From NCBI GenBank assembly GCA_029856375.1, contig JAHQWX010000027.1:1-11303 (forward strand): a DNA stretch of 11,303 bases. Direction: 5' to 3'. The notes under the pieces were generated by a model. The model saw nothing but the letters and a program-made list of their open reading frames with translations. It was not told the DNA's origin and made no database searches. The position numbers and the translations under genes are program-made. Positions 6,444-11,237 of the stretch are shown here, in pieces; the first letter of the stretch is position 1; each line of letters begins with the position of its first letter. The DNA is from Promethearchaeia archaeon (GTDB lineage: Archaea > Asgardarchaeota > Lokiarchaeia > Sigyniarchaeales > SOKP01).

Positions 6444-7295
6444 TTGAATATTATAAAAGACAACGACCTAATTTTATTAATTTACGATAAAAATAAGCAA
6501 TGGTTATTAAGAGTACGCCAAAATGAGAAATTTGACACTCATAAAGGTACAATACATTTCGACGATATTATCGGAAAGCAATTTGGAACATGCGTTTTTA
6601 CGAAACCTCAAGGATTTAAATTGAGAGTGTTTAAACCGCTTCCGAGCGACTTTGTCGTAAAAATGAGTCGAAAAACTCAAATTATTTATCCCGAGGATGC
6701 GGGATTAATTCTAATGTATACAGGTATTGGGCCAGGTTCTAATGTTTTAGAAGCAGGTACTGGATCCGGTGCTCTTACATGCATTTTAGGAAGTTATGTG
6801 CGACCAAAAGGTCGTATTTTTTCTTACGACATAAGAGAGAAATCCTTAAAACAAGCAAGGAAGAATGTTTTAAAAGCTAAACTCGAAGATGTTGTTTCTA
6901 TTGAATACGGAGACATTTTACAAGATTTAGAACACGAAGATTTGGACGCAGTAGTTTTGGATATTGCAACTCCTTGGTTAGCTGTGAAGAAAGTGAAGAA
7001 TTTTCTAAAGCTAAGTGGAAGTTTTGCATCCTTCTCTCCAACAATAGAACAAGTAAAAAAGACCGTCGCTGCATTAGAAGGAGGAGGATTTTACGACATT
7101 AAAACGTTCGAAATCATGAAACGTGTAATTTCAGTTAAAGAAAACGCTACTAGACCTGCAACGCGTATGATTGGGCATACTGGCTATCTAACATTTGCTC
7201 GGAGGGTAGAAGAAATAGAAAATCCTTACCAAGCCAGAAAGCCAGAAAAGCAAGAACAGGTGGACCTTTCCGATTTACCTTTAAGACCACCATAA
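6444..7295 (+). CDS. trmI: tRNA (adenine-N1)-methyltransferase TrmI
   Basis: A 283-residue class I SAM-dependent methyltransferase that makes m1A at position 58 of the tRNA T-loop (57/58 in some archaea). The N-terminal beta domain (about 1-75) is followed by QIIYPEDAGLIL (79-90). SAM motif I is VLEAGTGSGALT (101-112) and the motif II acid is in YDIREKS (128-134). The active-site segment VLDIATPW (171-178) corresponds to the D..EPW motif. RPATRMIGHTGYLTFARR near the end is the family's conserved closing strand. Length is normal, plus a short hydrophilic tail. The start is TTG; the first in-frame ATG (residue 74) would remove the whole N-terminal domain. A CTTTTAATA stretch near 6406 could be its TATA box. 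It is probably co-transcribed with the tRNA-binding protein 30 bases downstream. The family normally forms tetramers. Confidence 0.93.
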   Translation: MNIIKDNDLILLIYDKNKQWLLRVRQNEKFDTHKGTIHFDDIIGKQFGTCVFTKPQGFKLRVFKPLPSDFVVKMSRKTQIIYPEDAGLILMYTGIGPGSNVLEAGTGSGALTCILGSYVRPKGRIFSYDIREKSLKQARKNVLKAKLEDVVSIEYGDILQDLEHEDLDAVVLDIATPWLAVKKVKNFLKLSGSFASFSPTIEQVKKTVAALEGGGFYDIKTFEIMKRVISVKENATRPATRMIGHTGYLTFARRVEEIENPYQARKPEKQEQVDLSDLPLRPP

Positions 7296-7313
7296 TTCTA
7301 ATAGAAAAATTGT

Positions 7314-7318
7314 GAGGA
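7314..7318 (+). promoter_or_regulatory. Shine-Dalgarno deciding the start at 7326
   Basis: GAGGA lies 7 bases before the ATG at 7326 in the gap between the two genes. The in-frame TTG at 7320 would be only one base from it, so the ATG is the better start. Confidence 0.6.
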
Positions 7319-7325
7319 ATTGATA

Positions 7326-7667
7326 ATGGATATATCATATGGCAAGTTTATGGAAATGGAAATAAAAATTGGACAAATTAAAATTTGTGAGGTAATTCCT
7401 AAATCAAGGAATTTAATGAAAATGCTGGTAAATTGTGGAGAAGGCGGAAATCTTCGGCAAGTAGTTGCTGGGATGCATCCATATTACAAACCAGAAGAAA
7501 TGATCGGTAAGAAAGTTGTTGTTTTAACGAATTTAAAGCCAAGAAAATTAATGGGAATAGAATCTCAAGGAATGATATTGGCAGCAGATGTAGAAGATAG
7601 ACCTTACCTAATAACATTGGAAGAATCTCATAAGGATTTAGTCCCTCCAGGCAGTAGAATCAAGTAA
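7326..7667 (+). CDS. tRNA-binding OB-fold protein (MetRS C-terminal / beta-subunit type)
   Basis: A 113-residue stand-alone tRNA-binding domain. The start ISYGKFMEMEIKIGQI (3-18) matches the family opening (I.F.DF.K.D.RVG.I). RQVVAGMHPYYKPEEMIGKK (44-63) and NLKPRKLMGIESQGMILAA (69-87) are the hallmark blocks, and VPPGSRIK closes the domain. In bacteria this domain is fused to the end of methionyl-tRNA synthetase; many archaea have it as a separate protein that helps MetRS bind tRNA, while bacteria also have a free form, CsaA. The archaeal MetRS beta-like role is the best guess. Placement right after TrmI, with a 30-base gap and a good Shine-Dalgarno, makes a tRNA-dedicated two-gene unit. The stop is two bases from the stop of the convergent hypothetical gene. 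Confidence 0.92.
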   Translation: MDISYGKFMEMEIKIGQIKICEVIPKSRNLMKMLVNCGEGGNLRQVVAGMHPYYKPEEMIGKKVVVLTNLKPRKLMGIESQGMILAADVEDRPYLITLEESHKDLVPPGSRIK

Positions 7668-7669
7668 GA

Positions 7670-8095
7670 TTAAAATCCTTTTTTTTGAACGCCCATTTTC
7701 CAATCTTTCTTTTTCTTAAATCGAGAAGTTTTAAAATTAAATTTTCCAGTCCCACTTCCTTGAAGGATTTCTTCGTATTTTCTCGTGATTTCGTCCAAAA
7801 TCTCTTTTGTATCTTTATCAAAAATTTGCCTAGGGTCGTTCAATATCCTTAATGCTTCTTTCTTTTTGGTATCAAGCGAAATATTCAAATTATTTATAGG
7901 AATATGGTAAGATCGAACAAACCAGCCCCCGCCTTCCTCGTGCGCAGTAACCTTAAGTATTTTAGATGGAAGTTTTTTAATTTTGTAATCTAAAACTTTT
8001 TTTCCAGACTTTACGAGGATATTTAAATAGTATGGAAGTTCATTTTTTGCGTCTGTTATCTTTGATAAGAACTCCTTTAATTTATTATCGCTCAA
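7670..8095 (-). CDS. Lysine-rich hypothetical protein
   Basis: A 141-residue protein that I do not recognise. A hydrophilic helix (1-18) is followed by a mixed alpha/beta core in which LPYYLNILVKSGKKVLDYKI and HEEGGGWFVRSYHIPINNLN look like strands of a small fold. A charged helix follows (about 75-110), then a Gly- and Lys-rich basic tail (SRFKKKKDWKMGVQKKGF) that could bind nucleic acid. No cysteine cluster, signal peptide or membrane segment is seen. The start is TTG, with no in-frame ATG between it and the upstream stop; an ATG at 8106 is in another frame and hits a stop after four codons. It is divergent from the pseudo-GTPase gene across a 122-base gap and convergent with the tRNA-binding gene. 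The protein-like composition supports a real gene. Confidence 0.66.
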   Translation of the reverse strand: MSDNKLKEFLSKITDAKNELPYYLNILVKSGKKVLDYKIKKLPSKILKVTAHEEGGGWFVRSYHIPINNLNISLDTKKKEALRILNDPRQIFDKDTKEILDEITRKYEEILQGSGTGKFNFKTSRFKKKKDWKMGVQKKGF

Positions 8096-8156
8096 AGATC
8101 GATCATAACAATTTTAGATTTTTTAAGTTAAAAGATAATATTATAAATAAGTTAAA

Positions 8157-8170
8157 AATTTCTAGAAATT
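8157..8170. repeat. 14-base perfect palindrome AATTTCTAGAAATT
   Basis: This sequence equals its own reverse complement. It lies in the gap between the divergent hypothetical and pseudo-GTPase genes, about 19 bases upstream of the TATA-like box at 8189-8197. The shape and position suit a dimeric regulator's operator. No second copy was noticed in the window. Confidence 0.45.
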
Positions 8171-8188
8171 AGACAATTTTTAATTTAA

Positions 8189-8197
8189 TTTATAAAA
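8189..8197 (+). promoter_or_regulatory. TATA-like box for the pseudo-GTPase gene
   Basis: TTTATAAAA is centred 25 bases before the ATG at 8218, the spacing expected if transcription begins at the start codon. No Shine-Dalgarno precedes the ATG, which fits a leaderless transcript. Confidence 0.55.
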
Positions 8198-8217
8198 TTG
8201 CCCCCTTCGAGTTAATT

Positions 8218-9261
8218 ATGGATTCTTGTCAAGTCCTCGATTATCAAAACAAATTTAAATTGAAAGCTTCTTTGTTGGGAGGCTTGGAAAACCTCAAGAA
8301 TATTTTTCAAAAGCACATAAGTTCCAATAATTTACCAATTAATCATAAAAAAACGATTGGGGTAAATATTTCTAGTATTTATTATGATTATAACTACGAA
8401 ACCCGCTTTGAGTTTTATTTGTGGAATGTTGATTGTGGTTCTAGCTATTCGTCTGTTCGGCCGACTTTCTACAGAGGATCTGAAGCGATTATTGTCTTTA
8501 TCTCAGAAAATAAATTAGAACAAATCTCAAGTTATCTTCAAGAAATCCAGTTTCATTTACCCGTTATCCATATTATTTTTTGCGTAATTTTAGACAAATT
8601 AAATAAAGAAAATATAATAAAAACTCATTTCTCGAATAATGAATTAAAGGAATATAGCTTTGAATTTAATTCAATAAAAACACCTTCAGATATTCTAACG
8701 CAAATTAGTGATAGATTCATACATAAAAGAGAGAATCAAGTACGTTCTGACGCGTTAGTTGTTGACTTTCTAAAAGTACCTGATTTGTTTAGCCAAAAAG
8801 AATTCATATTCTTATCTGAAAAAGATAAGTCCGAACTATTGTTATGCAACGATTATACGGAAACTCGCAAAAATCCCGATAAAATAAATCCAAGTTATCG
8901 TGCAAATACGAAAATTCTAACTCGCTATATACAACTTCTCGGCGATTACGAGATCGTGGACGGAGAATGGGTCGTAATTCCCCATCAAGAATATGGAAAT
9001 TTTCTTATATGGCTAAAAAGTGGAGAGGTTTACATAATACCAAAGATCTGTCGTAATTGTACAATAAAAAAGTGTAAATTTAAAAAAGTTAAGAAGCGAC
9101 ATCTCTGCATCGAAGCAAGTTCGAAAGGTTGGTCAAATAGAGTGGATATTAACCAGAAGGAATTGCTAATTTTATCTAAAATTTACGCGATTATTTATTC
9201 TAAATTACCGAAGGATGTTATCGAAAAACTTATAAAATTCAACAAGTGCAAATTTAGATGA
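8218..9261 (+). CDS. Degenerate Ras/Rab-like GTPase domain with C-terminal cysteine-cluster region
   Basis: A 347-residue protein. Residues 12-170 can be laid on a Rab-type GTPase: FKLKASLLG (strand 1), TIGVNIS (46-52, switch I with its Thr), FYLW (66-69), then SVRPTFYRGSEAIIVF (79-94), very like Rab SLRPSYYRGA..I.VF. Later FEFNSIK (148-154) resembles the G5 FETSAK. The nucleotide motifs have decayed. The P-loop is GGLENLKN (21-28), keeping Lys but with Leu for the last Gly and Asn for Ser/Thr. WDTAGQ is WNVDCG, losing the G3 Asp, Gly and catalytic Gln. NKxD is not intact near 122-127. It is probably a pseudo-GTPase that does not hydrolyse GTP. The C-terminal half (about 175-347) is unrecognised; C278, C281, C286, H295 and C297 could bind zinc in a basic stretch. 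The gene overlaps the downstream YjbQ gene by ATGA. The ATG start is set by the TATA spacing. The fold call is by eye. Confidence 0.76.
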   Translation: MDSCQVLDYQNKFKLKASLLGGLENLKNIFQKHISSNNLPINHKKTIGVNISSIYYDYNYETRFEFYLWNVDCGSSYSSVRPTFYRGSEAIIVFISENKLEQISSYLQEIQFHLPVIHIIFCVILDKLNKENIIKTHFSNNELKEYSFEFNSIKTPSDILTQISDRFIHKRENQVRSDALVVDFLKVPDLFSQKEFIFLSEKDKSELLLCNDYTETRKNPDKINPSYRANTKILTRYIQLLGDYEIVDGEWVVIPHQEYGNFLIWLKSGEVYIIPKICRNCTIKKCKFKKVKKRHLCIEASSKGWSNRVDINQKELLILSKIYAIIYSKLPKDVIEKLIKFNKCKFR

Positions 9262-9680
9262 CAGTTGAAACAAAAACGTTTTCTATAAGTACCAAACCAT
9301 ATTGCGATGTTATCAATATTACAGACCAAGTTAATAATGCTGTAAGAGAGAGTTCAGTAGAGAGTGGGATTGTTAACATACACAATCCAGGTTCTACCGG
9401 AGCCATCTCAACAGTAGAATACGAACCAGGCTTAGTGAAACACGATATCGGGGAGTTTTTAGAGAGGATTCTTCCTTACGATAAGCGTTATGAGCATACA
9501 AAAACTTGGGGCGACCATAACGGAGCTGGACACTTAAGAAGTTTTCTCTTAAAAACTTCGCAGACATTTCCATTTCAGAATAAAAAACTACTTCTAGGCA
9601 CCTGGGAGCAGATTGTTTTTCTGGAGTTTGATGAGAAACCCCGCACCAGACATCTAACTCTAACAATAATTGGCGACTAA
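9258..9680 (+). CDS. yjbQ: YjbQ/UPF0047 family protein
   Basis: A 140-residue member of the UPF0047 (YjbQ) family, full length. Conserved blocks are NPGSTGAISTVEYEPGL (43-59), YEHTKTWGDHNGAGHLRS (78-95, the family's H...D.NG..HLR signature with H80, D86, H92) and LGTWEQIVFLEFDEKPRTR (113-131). The PGSTGAI..VEYEPGL version is the one I associate with archaeal and Thermus-like members rather than the HTTA version of E. coli. Some members complement a thiamine-phosphate synthase mutant, so the family is often labelled secondary thiamine-phosphate synthase, but its physiological role is not settled. It is cytoplasmic. The start ATG overlaps the TGA of the pseudo-GTPase gene, implying coupled translation. 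No separate Shine-Dalgarno is seen. The signature reads NGAGH where NGHSH or NGHAH is usual, so one His is replaced by Ala. Confidence 0.93.
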   Translation: MTVETKTFSISTKPYCDVINITDQVNNAVRESSVESGIVNIHNPGSTGAISTVEYEPGLVKHDIGEFLERILPYDKRYEHTKTWGDHNGAGHLRSFLLKTSQTFPFQNKKLLLGTWEQIVFLEFDEKPRTRHLTLTIIGD

Positions 9681-9768: not shown

Positions 9769-10488
9769 ATGAACGAATTTTATCAAAACTTAGATCCAGC
9801 GTTATTATGGACGATAATTATTGTTTGGATTATTAATGTAACAATTACATACATTCTTTCTTTCTACACTTTGATTAAGTATTCAAAGTCCGATAGAGAA
9901 TCCAGATCGAGAGACGAGAAGGAAAACATTATCACTTGGGTTTTTTATTTTATTTTCATTGGAATTGCGAACACGATGAATATTTTTCACAGCTTTTTTC
10001 TAGAAGGTGAATTATTAGTAGACTTCGTCGATGGAATTTCAAACTATTTCATATACGCTTCTTGGTTGGTGAAAGTATTTCCCATTGAAAGGTTATTGAA
10101 AAGACATAACACCTTAAATACTCGTTATCTTTTTACCTTTTGCTACATAATCTTAATTATTTTCGCGTTTGCAGTTAATCCAATAAATATCGTGACCAAT
10201 GAACTCTATATTACGATCTTTCTCATCCTGAGCAATATAGCTAAAGCTATTTTCATTGGAGTCTATTTATATTTTGCAGTAAAATCGTTTGGGCAGCTTA
10301 GAAGGGACGCTCTAAAAGTCGCTGCTGGTGTGTTGATTCTAGATTTAGGAATGACTTTACAACCCGTTAGTCTCATAGCTATTTTTCCAGATTTAATTGC
10401 TATAATCCCCTACTTGTCAATAGTAGGAACATTAATAGTCGTTTTCGCAATGCTATTACTCTTTGACAGCTACAGAAAAATTGTATAA
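9769..10488 (+). CDS. Multi-pass (about seven-helix) membrane protein, function unknown
   Basis: A 239-residue integral membrane protein. Hydrophobic stretches are at about 12-36, 55-77, 83-103, 119-138, 147-171, 182-204 and 208-232, giving seven candidate helices. Basic and charged connectors lie at 37-53 (KYSKSDRESRSRDEKEN), 107-119 (ERLLKRHNTLNTR) and 172-180 (KSFGQLRRD), which by the positive-inside rule would place these loops in the cytoplasm and the N-terminus outside. The arrangement resembles small seven-helix sensor or input modules, but no signalling domain is attached and I do not recognise a family. It has its own TATA box and a strong Shine-Dalgarno, so it is probably transcribed separately from yjbQ. 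It ends 32 bases before the stop of the opposing small gene. Confidence 0.82.
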   Translation: MNEFYQNLDPALLWTIIIVWIINVTITYILSFYTLIKYSKSDRESRSRDEKENIITWVFYFIFIGIANTMNIFHSFFLEGELLVDFVDGISNYFIYASWLVKVFPIERLLKRHNTLNTRYLFTFCYIILIIFAFAVNPINIVTNELYITIFLILSNIAKAIFIGVYLYFAVKSFGQLRRDALKVAAGVLILDLGMTLQPVSLIAIFPDLIAIIPYLSIVGTLIVVFAMLLLFDSYRKIV

Positions 10489-10892: not shown

Positions 10893-11237
10893 ATGAAAGA
10901 TGTCGAAGAATTGTTTAATTTCTGGGACGAACTTAACGATAAAATCGAAAAACATTTAGCAGCATTCGAGATGAGCGATGTTAAGAAGCTTAGGATGGAG
11001 CAGAGTGCGACAGAAGATACCGTATACGAACTATTAAAGCAAAACGCGCCACCCGAAATTGCTAAAATCTTACCAGAAGGATGCGGGGAAATGGAAATTG
11101 GATTGAACCACGATGAAAAGGCATTTTATTTTATAATGGAAGACCCAAATACTAGTAAAGACGAATTTATTGCTATCGTTTTTGGTGTTGACGCAAAAGC
11201 TAAAATTATTAAAAATTTTGACATAGATAATTATTAA
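10893..11237 (+). CDS. Small acidic hypothetical protein
   Basis: A 114-residue acidic protein that I do not recognise. The N-terminal half is two charged helices (about 1-25 and 28-52). The second half looks alpha/beta, with MEIGLNHDEKAFYFIME and EFIAIVFGVDAKAKIIKNFD as probable strands. This two-strand pattern with intervening loops could be a small dimeric or binding domain, but no motif supports a function. A single Cys (64) is present; there is no membrane segment or signal peptide, so it should be cytoplasmic. The ATG is supported by the GAGGA site 6 bases upstream. A seven-codon ORF starting at an ATG at 10873 ends across this start codon. The 66 bases after the stop are AT-rich and show no further gene. 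Confidence 0.75.
   Translation: MKDVEELFNFWDELNDKIEKHLAAFEMSDVKKLRMEQSATEDTVYELLKQNAPPEIAKILPEGCGEMEIGLNHDEKAFYFIMEDPNTSKDEFIAIVFGVDAKAKIIKNFDIDNY

Follow-up and report, generated by a model that had tools for sequence, protein, structure and literature searches.

The window, a stretch of 11,303 nucleotides forming positions 1 to 11,303 of contig JAHQWX010000027.1 of a Promethearchaeia archaeon, carries on its forward strand a gene for a protein of 347 amino acids. A Rab-like G domain in this protein is followed by a C-terminal domain with a cluster of cysteines. The features of the locus are given below, where A4 is the alignment of 15 Loki sequences. The Loki group, the closest kin of the window, includes 21 loci named Candidatus Lokiarchaeota or Lokiarchaeia.

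7670..8095, reverse strand: 141-aa gene, divergent neighbour; synteny conserved in Lokiarchaeota
8218..9261, forward strand: pseudo-Rab gene with C-terminal cysteine-cluster domain, 347 aa; identity to Loki orthologs 32-65% across almost the whole protein
8245..8742, forward strand: Rab-like G domain with degraded G motifs, residues 10-175
8278..8301, forward strand: degenerate P-loop GGLENLKN, residues 21-28; G21, E24 and K27 invariant in A4
8356..8373, forward strand: switch I / beta2 segment IGVNIS, residues 47-52, Rab-like; G48, V49, N50, I51 and S52 invariant in A4
8422..8439, forward strand: interswitch W69, then NVDCG (70-74) replacing DTAGQ; W69, N70 and C73 invariant in A4
8593..8604, forward strand: DKLN (126-129), at the NKxD position by alignment
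8743..8898, forward strand: strand 179-186 and linker with CNDY; C210 and Y213 invariant in A4
8899..9258, forward strand: C-terminal domain, residues 228-347, alpha+beta, without a convincing family or fold match
9049..9108, forward strand: C278-x2-C281-x4-C286-x10-C297, probable metal site, invariant in A1 and A4
9247..9249, forward strand: C344, fifth invariant cysteine (A1 and A4)
9258..9680, forward strand: yjbQ/UPF0047 gene, overlapping the pseudo-Rab ORF by 4 nt; neighbour conserved in Lokiarchaeota

A protein search gave 11 proteins at E ≤ 0.1. Full-length relatives were found in genomes of the same family, plus one in the same order; one full-length relative, P0002, is 65% identical to the window protein.

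Downstream sequence can be read in 21 Loki loci, the window included. In 17 of them yjbQ overlaps the pseudo-Rab gene or starts no more than 15 nt downstream; in two more it lies 130-201 nt away, and in the remaining two it comes two genes later. Genes for trm61, a tRNA-binding OB-fold protein and tryptophanyl-tRNA synthetase also belong to the Loki synteny. A Rag-type GTPase (PF04670) is encoded further downstream in 20 of 22 Loki loci, the exceptions being the window, where the contig ends too early, and L120, which is cut. One such gene, in L109 (9016-9942), has the intact P-loop GLDNAGKT, and its relatives lie downstream of yjbQ in the congeneric L142, L143 and L144, so that in the window's genome the gene is perhaps located just past the contig end. 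Downstream of yjbQ the window also contains a gene for a hydrophobic protein of 239 aa (9769-10488) with weak matches only, and a 114-aa gene (10893-11237) with no Pfam match at E ≤ 1, relatives of which adjoin yjbQ in the same three congeneric loci.

The pseudo-Rab gene is absent from four of four congeneric genomes (G001-G004), in which the site is otherwise conserved. In these genomes and in G005, G008, G016 and G059 the 141-aa gene adjoins yjbQ directly, their starts being about 100-200 nt apart, and the pseudo-Rab is therefore dispensable in some lineages. The Thorarchaeota (Thor) loci are organized differently from the Loki neighbourhood, with PIN-like, SLOG, phosphoesterase, UbiA and TyrRS genes among the neighbours examined. 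Ten of 11 Thor loci have the gene flanked on one side by a gene pair (605 aa, weakly PIN-like, plus one of about 150 aa) and on the other by a phosphoesterase gene; L128 is the exception, with a rearranged order. In another genome (G082, locus L133) a relative is followed by a RING/zinc-ribbon-like gene (6989-7498; TackOD1, E 5.6e-6, below the cut-off) and a gene for a proteasomal-type AAA ATPase (7966-8994).

A model that had read the sequence alone, here called the sequence-only reading, described a Rab-like domain with destroyed nucleotide motifs joined to a cysteine cluster, and this observation was confirmed. Fold prediction assigned the Ras/Rab fold to the G domain. Compared with active GTPases, the Loki and Thor alignments, each taken alone, were Ras-like with probabilities of 96.5 and 96.9, and family f28, with only three sequences, with 92.6. 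RhoE chains occur among the PDB sequence matches of the window protein, which also passes the curated cut-off of the Pfam family Roc (PF08477; 29.5 bits against 27). In ROCO proteins a COR domain follows Roc; none was detected in the window protein by Pfam at E ≤ 1. The RabF motifs of Rab proteins are IGVDF, KLQIW, RFRSIT, YYRGA and LVYDIT. When these motifs were compared by eye, IGVNI, W69 and FYRGS resembled RabF1, 2 and 4, and RabF3 and RabF5 were unrecognisable. The window protein terminates in NKCKFR and has no prenylatable C-terminal cysteine tail, and the stretch beyond C344 differs in length among the relatives. Asgard Rab-like proteins likewise have no such tail, according to excerpts of PMC4915359 and PMC10933270.

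Within the P-loop GGLENLKN (G21-N28) Leu replaces Gly and Asn replaces Ser/Thr, G3 is NVDCG, DKLN occupies the NKxD position and G5 is unrecognisable. The losses in the window protein comprise the second P-loop glycine, the Mg-binding Ser/Thr, DxxG, NKxD and G5, and the reading's claim of degraded nucleotide motifs is supported. All 27 Loki rows have likewise lost G1, G3, G4 and G5, and none has an intact P-loop or NKxD; the degeneration is common to the orthologs. The canonical G1-G5 motifs of the Rab family are not present in the window protein. An exception to the P-loop loss lies outside Loki, in the distant Helarchaeota relative P0010, where GAVGTGKT is intact. G21, E24, K27, N70, C73 and C122 are invariant in A4, which argues that the former pocket is under a constraint of its own and not drifting.

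The claim of a fusion to a new cysteine-bearing module was also borne out: the matches of the C-terminal domain include no convincing known family or fold, and zinc and Fe-S families match weakly, below their cut-offs. C278, C281, C286 and C297 would provide the four Cys ligands expected of a zinc ribbon or zinc finger; H295, which had been listed as a ligand, was wrong in detail. The pattern C-x2-C-x4-C-x10-C is present in 64 of 70 ORFs with this domain and absent from six. Nine of the 70 have fewer than 120 aa ahead of the domain; some of these are cut by contig ends or the choice of start, and some look like stand-alone copies. In family f15 the third tail cysteine is lost in two members, and most tail cysteines are gone from three short copies (L089, L094 and L095, about 115-162 aa, mainly C-terminal domain), so that in this lineage the C-terminal fold may not need the putative metal site.

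With the C-terminal-domain profile A2, matches were obtained at 104 places, distributed over 76 of the 227 genomes from the window's phylum. For two of these 76 genomes the matches reach only E ~6e-4: G072 and G056, where the match contains six stops. When the search was widened to 392 relatives, at least 165 of them outside the phylum if the 227 genomes are the whole phylum in the set, 76 were again found, every match within the same phylum. The 70 C-domain ORFs were extracted from fewer than all 104 places. A second group (Hel) is named Helarchaeota in large part; Promethearchaeota is given for two of its rows and Deferrimicrobium for one. The last, P0008, is a Helarchaeota-like pseudo-Rab labelled Candidatus Deferrimicrobium sp., which we take to be a bacterium; the contig is perhaps mis-binned. 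Family f8 is Thorarchaeota, as P0065, so named, is 100% identical to an f8 protein. The pairing of a Ras/Rab-like domain with the cysteine domain recurs in several Asgard lineages. Alignment of Loki against Thor with hhalign gave a probability of 99.5 and an E-value of 3.5e-22 over 297 columns including the linker; judged by this alignment, the two sets of proteins are one full-length homologous family.

For a census of motifs, 91 family G domains and 23 reference GTPases were placed in a single alignment. Family loci were collected via the C-terminal domain or whole-protein similarity, and a whole-protein profile search supplied most of the Hel rows, with a possible bias towards query-like rows. 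Three duplicates (P0001, P0011 and P0012) were removed, the nine short ORFs mentioned above were excluded, and five of the 91 rows were unscorable at the P-loop. The references are 23 of the 31 non-family proteins P0034-P0064, picked for an intact P-loop, and therefore serve as a yardstick of the alignment and not of the population rate. P0034, P0042, P0045, P0046, P0049, P0053, P0059 and P0062 were omitted; all of these except P0034 and P0059 lack GxxxxGK[ST] within the first 60 residues. P0045 and P0046 have a degenerate Ras-like domain with GLTEEQSDYLPQ at the P-loop and IWDITSQKRF retained, together with an N-terminal extension and without the cysteine domain; they possibly form a second pseudo-Rab line.

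An intact P-loop was present in one of 86 scorable family rows against 23/23 chosen references, DxxG in 1/89 against 22/23, [NTS]KxD in 0/91 against 23/23 and G5 in 0/91 against 23/23. The interswitch Trp was found in 87 of 89 family rows (references 23/23), the switch I Gly in 86 of 88 (23/23) and the switch II Gly in 89 of 90 (18/23). All 19 Thor rows have lost one of the two switch II aromatics. These kept residues bear on the claim that the effector-facing side had been preserved. The high retention of the Trp and the switch II Gly agrees with it, and the kept switch and interswitch residues are presumably effector-facing from Rab structure; the claim stands only in part, since the Trp and glycines may have been retained for the fold alone.

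The tree was calculated from 86 G domains, with 31 of 117 rows omitted as near-copies or partial. Loki (100/98), Hel (98/98) and Thor (100/99) each form a single group, and 62 pseudo-Rab rows cluster with moderate support (81/99). P0010, with its intact P-loop, P0011 and L063 branch apart from the other pseudo-Rabs, and two f28 rows are on a long branch. A single origin of all 67 fusion rows was not rejected (AU p 0.392), a result that does not amount to proof. We consider it possible, though short of probable, that a dedicated pseudo-Rab already existed before Loki-, Hel- and Thorarchaeota split, with a Rab fold that had abandoned GTP and persisted as an unchanging, nucleotide-independent docking surface attached to a new, putative metal-binding domain. 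If so, pseudo-GTPase signalling would be older than eukaryotes and part of the Asgard small-GTPase toolkit.

Pairwise dN/dS values (NG86) were calculated for 16 orthologs, excluding that of the window, for pairs with at least 68% identity. They ranged from 0.095 to 0.336 for the gene and from 0.06 to 0.39 over the G domain. The closest ortholog pair, L003-L004, has the highest value, 0.34; the closest pairs carry most weight, since dS is near or above 1 in many pairs. Values well below 1 indicate that purifying selection acts on the pseudo-Rab orthologs. The possibility that the gene is a duplicate in decay or reflects a sequencing error, which its absence from congeneric genomes would favour, is contradicted by these low values, by open, full-length orthologs with the same losses and by the 65%-identical, full-length P0002, and is scarcely credible. 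Similar losses in relatives from several Asgard groups argue instead for a preserved pseudo-enzyme.

The gene most plausibly encodes an ancient Rab-type pseudo-GTPase, acting as a nucleotide-independent scaffold or decoy and fused to a new, putative metal-binding cysteine-cluster domain; we regard this reading as fairly probable. The G domain would not cycle GTP and would instead offer a fixed protein-interaction surface, as the kept residues are those of switch I, the interswitch and switch II. C278, C281, C286 and C297, perhaps with C344, would bind a metal, most likely zinc, which would hold the tail domain together. As scaffold or decoy the protein would bind partners of active Rab-like GTPases in the cell, dozens of which are encoded in the window's own genome: among 46 Ras-family matches, all 27 that were checked, mostly better-scoring, have an intact P-loop. 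Points against this reading are the P-loop Lys retained in Loki and Hel, a possible role of the kept Trp and glycines in the fold alone, the absence of the gene from the congeneric genomes, the difference between the Loki and Thor neighbourhoods and the six C-domain ORFs without the four-Cys pattern.

An unlikely alternative is an atypical nucleotide binder, in which K27 and the G21 turn hold the phosphates of GTP, another nucleotide or an anion, making the protein a class ii or iii ligand sensor. K27 is invariant in the Loki alignment, and 63 of 86 scorable family rows retain the P-loop Lys, among them 27/27 Loki and 23/23 scorable Hel rows, with Ser/Thr retained in 21 of the latter 23; residual phosphate or nucleotide binding by the pseudo-Rab is therefore possible. 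The intact P-loop of P0010, which carries the same C-terminal domain, also fits, and there is a precedent in the bacterial Group 2 MglA proteins, which deviate from the canonical NKxD and include CvnD9, with GTPase activity shown (excerpts of PMC4316618). Against nucleotide binding, the second P-loop Gly is present in only one of 86 scorable rows, NKxD and G5 are gone in 91 of 91, and the Lys too is missing in Thor (0/19).

Quite unlikely, in our estimate, is a redox- or metal-responsive protein, whose five tail cysteines, joined in Loki by C73, C122 and C210, would bind a metal or Fe-S cluster as the signal, with the G fold as a carrier. All eight are invariant in A4, the four-Cys pattern is widespread, and a Cys of the Thor homologs aligns with C210. 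C73 is present in 9 of the 24 Hel rows, which slightly raises this reading, and also in L028 and L062, but in only one of 19 Thor rows; C122 is found in 0/24 Hel and 0/19 Thor rows, and the cysteine losses of f15 and the sub-threshold zinc and Fe-S matches likewise speak against it. A translation- or tRNA-linked factor whose tail binds RNA is very improbable. It is suggested by the conserved synteny with the Trm61, tRNA_bind and TrpRS genes, but the flanking order persists where the pseudo-Rab is absent, the Thor neighbours are different, and the window protein had no match to an RNA-binding family.

The many small GTPases for which Asgard archaea are known have been interpreted as precursors of eukaryotic membrane traffic. 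A pseudo-Rab maintained across several Asgard lineages would mean that GTPase gene counts overstate the number of switches, and would show selection for non-switching Rab folds in archaea, accompanied by a family-less tail domain. It would also be a concrete protein for testing which partners Rab-like surfaces have in Asgard cells, free of the nucleotide cycle.

Excerpts of PMC5593906 describe pseudoGTPases and divide them into three classes, and a 2020 review of pseudo-GTPases by Stiegler and Boggon is cited in part of PMC13236570. Asgard and prokaryotic small GTPases and fusions with roadblock or longin domains are treated in PMC10933270, PMC4915359, PMC4917890 and PMC4316618, in excerpts of which the pseudo-Rab family was not met; titles and abstract starts of the open-licence literature gave no Asgard pseudoGTPase of this kind among the matches listed. 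Class (i), without nucleotide binding, includes p190RhoGAP pG1/pG2, CENP-M and fungal dynein LIC (excerpts of PMC5593906). The window protein shares with it the Ras-type fold and degraded G motifs, from which loss of nucleotide binding and a scaffold or regulatory role would be expected; unlike these eukaryotic examples, it comes from an archaeon, resembles Rabs most closely and carries at its end a cysteine domain that matched no known family. Table 2 of the same source places the Rnd/RhoE proteins in class ii; they too belong to the Ras superfamily and have no normal GTPase cycle, but they bind GTP, whereas the nucleotide motifs of the window protein are degraded. With Asgard Rab-like GTPases such as Thor-Rab, crystallised with GDP (excerpts of PMC10933270 and PMC4915359), it has in common a Rab-like G domain, IGVN, the interswitch Trp and the switch II aromatic and Gly; it differs by the loss of G1, G3, G4 and G5 and by an added domain of about 115 residues. 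P0010, annotated as 'Rab family GTPase' of a Candidatus Helarchaeota archaeon, combines the same C-terminal domain with a Rab-like G domain, and differs in its intact P-loop and in AKAE at the NKxD position.
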